NCBI GenBank assembly: GCA_036265815.1
Contig: DATAOI010000027.1
Span: forward strand, 62,001-126,000
Reading direction: 5' to 3'
Source: Gemmatimonadales bacterium
GTDB lineage: Bacteria > Gemmatimonadota > Gemmatimonadetes > Gemmatimonadales > GWC2-71-9
DNA length: 64,000 bases
The number at the start of each line of letters is the position of its first letter. Position 1 is the stretch's first letter. Positions 39,528 to 43,009 of this stretch are shown here, one piece after another. A program made the translations under genes and the position numbers. The notes under the pieces are model-generated. The model was given only the letters and a program-made list of their open reading frames with translations, made no database searches and was not told where the DNA came from.

Positions 39528-41573
39528 TTAAACCTCCACCCCCAGCTCCGAAAACACAAACGCCCAGGTGTCGGTCACCTCGTCCAGCACCTTGGACAAA
39601 GGCTTGCCCGCCCCGTGACCGGCCCGGGACTCCAGTCGCAGGAGCACGGGGTGTCGCGAGGCAGTGGCCGCCTGCAGCCGGGCCGCCATCTTGCGGGCGT
39701 GCATCGGGTCCACCCGGCTGTCGCTTTCGGCGGTGGCGAGCAGCACGGCGGGGTAGTTGGTCCCGTCCTGGACGTGGTGGTATGGCGAGTAGGCCCGCAG
39801 CCAGGCGTACTGCTCCGGATCATCCGCGGAGCCGTATTCCGGAATCCACAGCCGGGCGATCAGGAACCGATGGTACCGGAGCATGTCGAGCAGCGGGACC
39901 TGCACCACGATCGCCCGGAACAGCTCGGGACGCTGGGTGAGCACCGCGCCCATCAGCAGTCCGCCGTTGGACCCGCCCGCGGCGGCCAGCCGGGCCGGAC
40001 TGGTGTAGCGCTCCGCGATCAGCCACTCCGCCGCCGCGATGAAGTCGTCGAAGCTGTTCTGCTTCTTGCCGAGCATGCCCCCCTGATGCCACGCCTCACC
40101 ATACTCGCCTCCGCCGCGGATGTTGGGAATGGCCACGATCCCGCCGCGCTCGAGCCAGAGGAGCAGCGAGCGGGAGAACGCCGGTGTCATGCTGATGTTG
40201 AATCCGCCGTAGCCGCTCAGGTACACCGGGTTGTTCCCGTCTCGCACCACGCCCGTCCGGTGCACCAGGAACATGGTCACCTGGGTGCCGTCCCTGGAGG
40301 TGACGCTCACCTGGCGGACCTCGAACCGCTCGGGATCGACCTCGGCCTCCACTCGCCGCCAGAGCGTCTGTGCCCCGGTGTCGAGGTCGATGCGGTAGAT
40401 GCTCGGCGGTATGGTGTAGGACGAGTAGCCGTAAAAGATCTCCCGGCCGTCCCACTCCGCGCCGATGCCGAAGAGGCTGCCGAGCGCAGGGAGCGCCACC
40501 TCGCTCACGATGCGACCCTCGAGATCGGCCAGGCGGAGTCGCGAGGAGGCCCGCTCCAGATAGCTCAACGCCAGCCGGTCACCTGCCACTCGCATCCCGT
40601 CGAGCACGGCGTCCGCGCGCGGGGCCACCAGCTCGCGCCAGTGCGCCCGCTCGGCGCGCCCAGGGTCCACGACATAGAGCCGGTAGGTCGGGGCGTCGAG
40701 ATTGGTGCGCAGGAACAGCCGCCCGTGGGCCACCTGGCCTTCGAAAGAGGCCGGAAGATCCTCGACCACCGGTCGCAGGGGTCCGCCGCTGACCCGATCG
40801 CGGAGGTAGAGGTCCGTCTGATCGAACGTCCGCGCCACCCCGATCACCAGCCAGCGGCCGTCCGGCGAGAGGCTGACTCCCGGCCAGTACTCCTTTTGCG
40901 CGGGACGGAACTCGAGAGGGTCGGCGGCGAAATCGGATCCGAGTCGATGAAAGAACACCGAGCGGTGATAGGGCTCCTCACCCTCCGGCACCTCGCCCGG
41001 CGCGGGGTAGCGGGTATAGTAGAACCCGCTGCTGTCCGGCAGCCACGCGAGGTCCGCGGCCCGGGTGCGCGGGATCCGCTCGGGGAGGGTCTCGCCGGTG
41101 TCCACATCGAGCAGATGGAGGACGCTCTGCTCGCTGCCGTTCTGGGAGAGTCCGTACGCCAGCAGGCGCCCGTCGTCGCTGGGATAGTACCAGTCGAGGG
41201 CCGTGGTGCCGGCCGCATCATGCGCGTTGGGGTCGACCGCCACCCGATCGGCGCCGTTCACCCCGTCACGCACGTAGAGCACCGGCTGGTTCTGGCGGCC
41301 ATCGCGCCGCTGATAGAAGTAGCGCCCGCGGGCCGGGGTAGGAACGCTGATCGCCCCGATGGCGAGCAAGGCATCCAGCCGTTCGCGGATCCGCACCCGG
41401 CCGGGGAAGCCGGCGAGGTAGCGCTCGGTGAGCGCGTTCTGCCGCTCGGTCCAGGCCACCACCTCGGGCGCCTCGCTGTCCTCCAGCCAGCGGTAGGGGT
41501 CCGCGAGCGCTTCACCGTGCAGCACGTCCGTCTGGTCCTGCCTGCGCGTCTCGGGGTAGCGGAGCTCAGTCAC
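39528..41573 (-). CDS. Prolyl oligopeptidase family serine peptidase (S9A)
   Basis: 681 aa, normal for POP, with no signal peptide. N-terminal segment YPETRRQDQTDVLHGEALADPYRWLED, a beta-propeller, then the alpha/beta-hydrolase domain: AAGGSNGGLLMG (nucleophile Ser), ESDSRVDPMHA (Asp) and SRAGHGAGKPLSK (His). Cleaves Pro-containing short peptides. Its start overlaps the pfkA end by 8 bp, so it is third in the selW-pfkA-POP operon. Confidence 0.94.
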   Translation of the reverse strand: MTELRYPETRRQDQTDVLHGEALADPYRWLEDSEAPEVVAWTERQNALTERYLAGFPGRVRIRERLDALLAIGAISVPTPARGRYFYQRRDGRQNQPVLYVRDGVNGADRVAVDPNAHDAAGTTALDWYYPSDDGRLLAYGLSQNGSEQSVLHLLDVDTGETLPERIPRTRAADLAWLPDSSGFYYTRYPAPGEVPEGEEPYHRSVFFHRLGSDFAADPLEFRPAQKEYWPGVSLSPDGRWLVIGVARTFDQTDLYLRDRVSGGPLRPVVEDLPASFEGQVAHGRLFLRTNLDAPTYRLYVVDPGRAERAHWRELVAPRADAVLDGMRVAGDRLALSYLERASSRLRLADLEGRIVSEVALPALGSLFGIGAEWDGREIFYGYSSYTIPPSIYRIDLDTGAQTLWRRVEAEVDPERFEVRQVSVTSRDGTQVTMFLVHRTGVVRDGNNPVYLSGYGGFNISMTPAFSRSLLLWLERGGIVAIPNIRGGGEYGEAWHQGGMLGKKQNSFDDFIAAAEWLIAERYTSPARLAAAGGSNGGLLMGAVLTQRPELFRAIVVQVPLLDMLRYHRFLIARLWIPEYGSADDPEQYAWLRAYSPYHHVQDGTNYPAVLLATAESDSRVDPMHARKMAARLQAATASRHPVLLRLESRAGHGAGKPLSKVLDEVTDTWAFVFSELGVEV

Positions 41574-42645
41574 CCAGGCTGATCCCCATCTCCCGCGCGG
41601 TCCGCACCGTGTCGCTGTCCAACGGCACGTTCTTGGCGCGGCCTACCACATTCTCCAGCGCGATCCGGGTGATGTCCGGCCCGTTGAGACCGACCATGAT
41701 GCCGAAGGCCCCATCGGCGATCGCCCGGACCGCGGCGGCGCCGAACCGCAGCGCCAGCAGCCGATCGTACGTGGTGGGGGAGCCACCTCGCTGCAGGTGC
41801 CCCAGCACCAGCGTCCGGGTTTCCTTCCCGGTGTGATGCTCGATGGTGCGGGCAACCTTGCCGGCGATCCCGCCGAGCCGGTCCACCGTCCCCACCCCCC
41901 GCCGCTCGACCAGCTCCACCGTGCCGTCCTTCGGTCGCGCGCCCTCGGCGACCACCACGATGCTGAAGTGCCGGCCCGCTGCCTCGCGGCTGCGGATCTT
42001 TTCGCAGACCTTCTCGATGTCGAAGGGGATCTCGGGAAGCAGGATGACGTCCGCACTGCCCGACAGACCGCTGTAGAGCGCGATCCAGCCCGCATAGCGG
42101 CCCATCAGCTCGACCACCATCACTCGATCGTGGCTCTCCGCGGTGGAGTGCAGCTTGTCGATGGCTTCGGTGGCGGTGCTGACGGCGGTATCGAACCCGA
42201 AGGTGCGCTGGGTCCCGCTCACGTCGTTGTCGATCGTCTTGGGGACACAGACCACCGGGAGCCCCTTGCGCCAGAGGTCGTGCGAGATCTGCAGGCTGCC
42301 ATCCCCGCCGATCGAGACCAGCGCGTCGAAGCCGCTCGCCTGGAAGGCCCCTACTAGATCCTCCGAGCGATCCACCTCGTGCTCCTGCCCGTCGTCGATC
42401 CGGGTGATGTAGCGGAATGGATTGCCTCGGTTGCTGGTGCCGAGAATGGTGCCGCCGAGATGGGTCAGCCCGCGCACCTCGGCGGGGCCAAGCGGGACCA
42501 CGCCGGTGAAAGAAAGCAGGCCCTCGTAGCCTCGCTGAATGCCGTAGCACTGCCATCCCCGGTAGTGCGCCGACAGTACGACCGCCCGAATGACCGCATT
42601 GAGTCCGGGGGCATCGCCGCCGCCGGTGGAGATCGCAATGCGCAT
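41566..42645 (-). CDS. pfkA: 6-phosphofructokinase
   Basis: 359 aa. ISTGGGDAPGLNAVIRAVV at the N-terminus, SIGGDGSLQISHDL (Gly at the ATP-type '104' position) and VPKTIDNDVSGTQRTFGFDTA (Lys where bacterial ATP-PFK has Gly in PGTIDND). The mixed signature is seen in PPi-PFK-related ATP enzymes, so ATP use is likely but not certain. MVVELMGRYAGWIAL and EGARPKDG bind fructose 6-phosphate. The ATG begins 1 nt after the selW stop. Confidence 0.93.
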   Translation of the reverse strand: MRIAISTGGGDAPGLNAVIRAVVLSAHYRGWQCYGIQRGYEGLLSFTGVVPLGPAEVRGLTHLGGTILGTSNRGNPFRYITRIDDGQEHEVDRSEDLVGAFQASGFDALVSIGGDGSLQISHDLWRKGLPVVCVPKTIDNDVSGTQRTFGFDTAVSTATEAIDKLHSTAESHDRVMVVELMGRYAGWIALYSGLSGSADVILLPEIPFDIEKVCEKIRSREAAGRHFSIVVVAEGARPKDGTVELVERRGVGTVDRLGGIAGKVARTIEHHTGKETRTLVLGHLQRGGSPTTYDRLLALRFGAAAVRAIADGAFGIMVGLNGPDITRIALENVVGRAKNVPLDSDTVRTAREMGISLGD

Positions 42646-42646
42646 G

Positions 42647-42874
42647 TCAGCGGGAGCGGCCGATCAGGGCCATGATCTCTCCCGGTTCCGCATGGCGGCG
42701 GAGTGCCTTCTTGGAAAAGATGAGATCGTCGTCCACCGTGACCTCGAACACGCCGCCGGAGGACTGGATCAGGCGGATGTCGGCATCGGGAAAACGCTCT
42801 TTCAGCTCAGCCATCAGACCGACGGCTCGCGGCTGATAGTTTCAGACGACGCAGAACTCGATCGTGACCTGCAT
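42647..42874 (-). CDS. selW: SelW/Rdx-family selenoprotein with in-frame UGA (Sec11)
   Basis: Read from ATG 42874 (GGAGGA Shine-Dalgarno 6 nt upstream), the frame gives MQVTIEFCVV, a TGA at 42842-42844, then 64 codons to a TGA at 42647-42649, coupled to pfkA. The part after the first TGA is unmistakably SelW/Rdx (NYQPRAVGLMAELKERFPDA, then SSGGVFEVTVDDDLIFSKKAL), and the first TGA falls exactly at the redox position of the family's CxxC/CxxU motif (C8-V-V-U11). It is therefore best read as a 75-aa thioredoxin-fold selenoprotein. If UGA is not decoded, only a 10-residue peptide results. The sel genes are not in the window. Confidence 0.85.
42808..42835 (-). promoter_or_regulatory. Candidate bacterial SECIS hairpin in selW
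   Basis: On the mRNA, CAGCC (10-14, counting the U of UGA as 1) pairs with GGCUG (33-37). An inner short stem (GCC with GGU, plus A-U across a bulge) exposes a GUC loop whose first G is 19 nt after the UGA. This fits the general bacterial SECIS layout: a hairpin right after UGA with a G at the start of the apical loop. Hand-folded only. Confidence 0.5.
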
Positions 42875-43009
42875 CTCGGTTCCTCCAAGGGGAGCGCAGC
42901 GGAAGCCGCCGCGAATCGTAGCGGTCCCGTGGGCCGCTGCCAAGGGGACGGGGGGGCCGGTGACGCGGCGCCTTGTCAGGCCTGATTCGATACCGTATCT
43001 ATATGATCC

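Follow-up and report, generated by a model that had tools for sequence, protein, structure and literature searches.

The short reverse-strand reading frame at 42647..42874 of the window, the 64,000-nucleotide stretch of Gemmatimonadales DNA analysed here, raises the question of whether its in-frame TGA is a stop, a defect or a codon for selenocysteine (Sec). As read from the sequence, the frame starts with an ATG at 42874-42872, continues for ten codons, meets the TGA at 42842..42844 (-) and then runs for 64 more codons up to a second TGA (42649-42647), in such a way that reading through gives 75 codons plus a stop at codon 76, and a 75-aa product, MQVTIEFCVV-U-NYQPRAVGLMAELKERFPDADIRLIQSSGGVFEVTVDDDLIFSKKALRRHAEPGEIMALIGRSR. 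The first TGA is the putative Sec codon 11, an assignment based on its conservation and on the sel machinery of the genome. A Shine-Dalgarno sequence, GGAGGA (42881..42886, (-)), lies 6 nt before the ATG, and pfkA (6-phosphofructokinase; 41566..42645, (-)) begins with its own ATG at 42645, a single nucleotide (42646) after the selW-like stop. The frame is also open 5' of the ATG, up to 43270, and comparison with homologues showed the same start codon in relatives. Direct reading confirmed the layout proposed in the first-pass annotation, namely a frame from ATG 42874 whose sole interruption is a TGA at the second redox position, a strong Shine-Dalgarno and a real stop 1 nt before pfkA. Standard gene calling would drop this gene or truncate it at codon 10.

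The whole read-through product was searched against protein family profiles and scored above the curated cut-offs of Pfam Rdx PF10262 (75.3 bits vs 22.6, E 4.5e-21), TIGR02174 (62.7 bits vs 34.2) and NF041051, or SelTWH_Campy (97.6 bits vs 88, E 3.7e-28). The 64 residues after the TGA match by themselves both NF041051 (4.4e-22) and TIGR02174 (1.3e-11), so the family sequence truly runs past the TGA and is no accidental extension. The suspected SelW/Rdx identity, with matching sequence on both sides of the TGA, is thus upheld by the whole-length and the post-TGA matches. The CxxU redox motif of the family is present near the N-terminus as C8-V-V-U11, and a protein with this motif is presumably a thiol/selenol oxidoreductase. 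Its relatives of solved structure, as judged by sequence, are Atu0228 (2fa8), SAV_2001 (3dex), C17orf37 (2ljk) and, weakly, selenoprotein W (2npb), and the likeness to 2fa8 and 3dex suggests a thioredoxin-like fold.

The genome to which the window belongs (4.59 Mb, 99% complete, 119 contigs) was searched for the selenocysteine machinery, and the four genes expected from the proposed decoding were all found. The profile searches detected selA (522 bits vs a cut-off of 268), selB (337 bits vs 242, in a 612-aa ORF) and selD (377 bits vs 125), and tRNA-Sec (selC) scored 67.6 bits vs a gathering score of 47, being also called by ARAGORN as tRNA-SeC with anticodon tca (UCA). SelD, checked as a further selenoprotein in this genome, carries Cys and not Sec (GAGCACK). 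A second, weaker match to the SelD profile in the same genome (G000:C92:93279-93821; 63.6 bits, below the cut-off) is probably a related AIR-synthase-type protein. One genome of the same genus has two tRNA-Sec matches of 69.9 bits each (G001:C24:20672-20765 and G001:C311:3068-3161), which could be either a copy created by the assembly or a genuine duplication.

The link between gene and machinery was followed in 121 genomes, comprising the window's own and its relatives from genus to order. A selW-like match was found in 92 of them, and selB or selC was detected in 90 of these 92 (Fisher p 1.5e-9 over the 121 genomes, a value that ignores shared ancestry); the two exceptions are MAGs that are 69% and 76% complete. 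Among the 29 genomes with no SelW, 15 showed neither selB nor selC, and the 14 that have one or the other may encode other selenoproteins, for example FdhA. These data bear on an alternative in which the UGA is read as another amino acid, such as Trp or Cys, by a near-cognate or suppressor tRNA, or has been reassigned in this organism; the gene's own DNA, which shows only an in-frame UGA, agrees with it. Reassignment is rejected because TGA also terminates the same ORF, 1 nt before pfkA, and the whole alternative is made very improbable by the dedicated tRNA-Sec (UCA) with SelA and SelB, by the location of the UGA at a redox position, and by a gene presence that tracks selB/selC.

The codon itself was compared among relatives, a comparison that the first-pass annotation had also pointed to, and it was TGA in every case examined. 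All 92 matches in the 121 genomes have TGA and none TGC; at the phylum level about half of the sampled Gemmatimonadota genomes carry the gene (190/395), with TGA in every one among the matches listed, the weakest lying outside that list. The best 80 GTDB matches likewise gave 80 TGA and no TGC, and they come from Gemmatimonadota, Desulfobulbaceae, Planctomycetota, Actinomycetota, Chloroflexota, Acidobacteriota, Bacillus relatives and others, the loci nearest to the window gene being those of Gemmatimonadales MAGs. The frame downstream of the TGA is intact in the relatives examined, and the changes with respect to six near relatives fall, in this downstream part, mostly at third codon positions. 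As outcomes against a selenoprotein, the first-pass annotation had named a genome with no selB/selC, or relatives with other codons followed by a degraded frame, and none of this was found. The Cys forms detected (L142, L152, L157 and L159) represent a more distant CxxC subfamily, of which the one member tested fell below the NF041051 cut-off; this rarity of close Cys forms agrees with the few Cys homologues of SelW-like proteins reported in Sec-using organisms (Zhang et al. 2006, PMC1794560). A locus scored with two TGA codons (L123, from genome G072) was discarded, as the second is a true stop inside the match and not another Sec codon.

The mRNA can form a SECIS-like hairpin, AGCCGUC-GGUCU-GAUGGCU (42809..42827, (-)), that starts 14 nt after the UGA, carries the loop GGUCU at 42816-42820 (-), and is supported by folding and covariation. 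The predicted fold energy of the 51 nt from the UGA is -18.2 kcal/mol, and the window hairpin taken alone is only modestly better than codon-shuffled versions (p about 0.05). A codon-constrained null was built by redrawing synonymous codons from the usage of the family, and the 104 distinct homologous stretches exceeded it both in stem pairs (mean 5.72 of 7 vs 4.55, sd 0.08) and in mean energy (-10.2 vs -6.6 kcal/mol, sd 0.25), so the hairpin is no by-product of the protein sequence. In 49 divergent sequences 79.6% of the stem cells pair; changes on both sides of a pair were found in 53 cells vs 19.4 +/- 3.9 after shuffling, and the covariation score was 0.441, compared with 0.184 for shuffled alignments and no more than 0.144 for slid controls; none of 500 shuffles reached the observed value in either measure. 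The two outer column pairs (18-36 and 19-35) are weak, failing to pair in nearly half of the relatives; the signal comes from the inner five, and general conservation is claimed for these alone. Of the 104 stretches, 74 have GGUCU, AGUUU or AGUCU as the loop and 100 have G as the second loop base. Bacterial SECIS elements have been described as marked by a small apical loop in which a guanosine is conserved (PMC1088965, PMC4607533). By contrast, in two of the Verrucomicrobia Cys genes (L142 and L157), read by hand, only 2-3 of the 7 pairs form.

A pseudogene or a sequencing error, by which the TGC of a CxxC Rdx gene became TGA, could be imagined from a fragmented assembly (119 contigs) and from the single base that separates both codons. 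It is rejected on the finding of TGA in every relative examined and of TGC in none, and an intact downstream frame under protein-level constraint, a covarying hairpin 3' of the TGA and the sel genes of the genome leave it hardly any probability.

Further selenoproteins were looked for in the same genome in a targeted family, the molybdopterin oxidoreductases. On contig C87, an FdhA-like frame (L162, G000:C87:116500-123500) reads NIDSCNRT-TGA-HAPSVVGLATVFG and has 564 further open codons beyond the TGA, which lies at about C87:120135 on the (-) strand within the motif SCNRT-U-HAPSVVGL. This site is the standard Sec position of formate dehydrogenase, as in E. coli FdhF. Reading by eye, a hairpin CGUCGUC-GGUCU-GGCGACG is possible in the FdhA-like mRNA 11 nt past its UGA, so that the SelW-like stem of the same genome begins 3 nt later with respect to its UGA (14 nt) and both candidate hairpins share the loop GGUCU; the RNAfold minimum-energy fold of the 54-nt FdhA-like stretch differs from this by-eye hairpin. 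The N-terminus of the FdhA-like frame is short: a TAG precedes the Sec codon by about 96 codons, and the interval between them showed no 4Fe-4S motif. A NuoE/NuoF-like fused frame comes after this gene.

With a probability of about 0.96, we read the locus as an intact SelW-like selenoprotein gene of the Rdx family, whose codon-11 UGA would be decoded as Sec in a SelB- and hairpin-dependent manner. The selenocysteine decoding implied by the first-pass annotation finds support in the machinery, the universal TGA, the covarying hairpin and the FdhA-like gene, from which we infer incorporation, and the Gemmatimonadota lineage of the window is thereby indicated to decode UGA as selenocysteine. In the proposed mechanism, the ribosome would meet the UGA at codon 11 of the selW-like mRNA, and SelB, presumably bound to the GGUCU-loop hairpin that starts 14 nt past it, would deliver there the Sec-tRNA(Sec) that SelA would make from the selC tRNA with selenophosphate from SelD. 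Selenocysteine would then be inserted and translation would continue to the UGA at codon 76, yielding the 75-aa protein.

The neighbourhood of the gene was also compared. In 38 loci pfkA lies directly downstream on the same strand, nearly all of them Gemmatimonadota-titled or from relatives of the window genome, and an OmpA-type gene is found divergently upstream in about 20. Among the loci of other named phyla in this comparison, none showed pfkA beside the SelW-like gene, so the function of SelW is not generally tied to pfkA. In the window, the gap of 1 nt suggests that the selW-like gene is probably co-transcribed with pfkA, and this gap, together with the synteny across Gemmatimonadota, means that the point at which translation ends could affect pfkA initiation. 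That the UGA is mainly a regulated stop, ending a short leader whose selenium-dependent read-through couples selenium status to pfkA translation, draws on the same 1-nt gap and synteny, but a pure leader role has a negligible chance because the family occurs with no adjacent pfkA in other phyla and the protein itself is conserved. A milder version, in which UGA decoding would tune pfkA translation besides inserting Sec, is much less likely than the UxxU form of SelW described below.

Bacterial SelW-like selenoproteins with CxxU have been known since 2005. They were described from the Sargasso Sea set (PMC1088965), and members have been found in Geobacter, Desulfotalea, Symbiobacterium, the Sargasso Sea and GOS (PMC1088965, PMC1794560, PMC2398784). 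In GOS they are the most abundant selenoprotein family, with 427 Sec and 56 Cys forms, and thus the commonest selenoproteins of marine bacteria (PMC2398784), and an NCBI HMM, NF041051, already covers the "SelT/SelW/SelH family (seleno)protein". The window gene shares with the described members the CxxU motif, a bacterial-type hairpin 3' of the UGA whose loop has a conserved G, and the scarcity of Cys homologues in Sec-using organisms, and it differs from them in its host, a member of Gemmatimonadota, and in adjoining pfkA. A specific description of Gemmatimonadota selenoproteins was not found in the literature searched, although tables of large surveys may include the phylum. Similarity to SelW of Campylobacter (the CJnc60 ORF in C. 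jejuni; PMC4607533, PMC11955535) is seen in length (80-81 aa vs 75 aa) and in passing the equivalog NF041051; those genes were likewise missed by annotation, as selW genes of epsilonproteobacteria often are (PMC4607533). In C. jejuni, full-length translation through the UGA was proven by Ribo-seq, termination-site mapping and proteomics/mass spectrometry (PMC11955535), whereas read-through of the window gene is predicted from sequence. The CxxC proteins Atu0228 (2fa8) and SAV_2001 (3dex), with solved structures, belong to the same Rdx family but to a different subfamily, with Cys in place of the Sec of the window gene. Mammalian selenoprotein W (2npb) is an Rdx protein with CxxU like the window gene, although the similarity is weak (E 0.035), and its eukaryotic SECIS lies in the 3' UTR (PMC1088965), unlike that of the window gene.

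Four SelW-like loci of Verrucomicrobia have TGA at both redox positions (UxxU, as Y-U-GM-U-N): L048 (3001-3219, from the same genome as L132), L058 and L076 (both from 3001) and L133 (G430:C90:173-382). Their N-termini include MNVSILY-U-GM-U-NYKPQ and MNIEIVY-U-GM-U-NYLPS, and the ratios of synonymous to nonsynonymous codon changes among L048, L058 and L076 are 15:5, 24:13 and 29:11; the UxxU protein sequence is conserved. Of the four genomes, three have a selB match above the cut-off, and of the three searched for tRNA-Sec (tca) two carry it; in the genome of L076, of unstated completeness, neither a selB over the cut-off nor tRNA-Sec was found. On balance, these sequences favour the existence of SelW-like proteins with two selenocysteines, a predicted diselenide SelW. 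The GOS study gives UxxU for a Prx-like family and lists SelW-like proteins only as CxxU (PMC2398784), and no report of a UxxU SelW was found in a literature search of partial coverage. Both UGAs are 9 nt apart with a hairpin after the second, and only one clear hairpin was found in three of the four loci, so one SECIS may have to serve both UGAs, or the first may be decoded by other rules. These relatives would make it possible to test how a single hairpin might act on a pair of UGAs.
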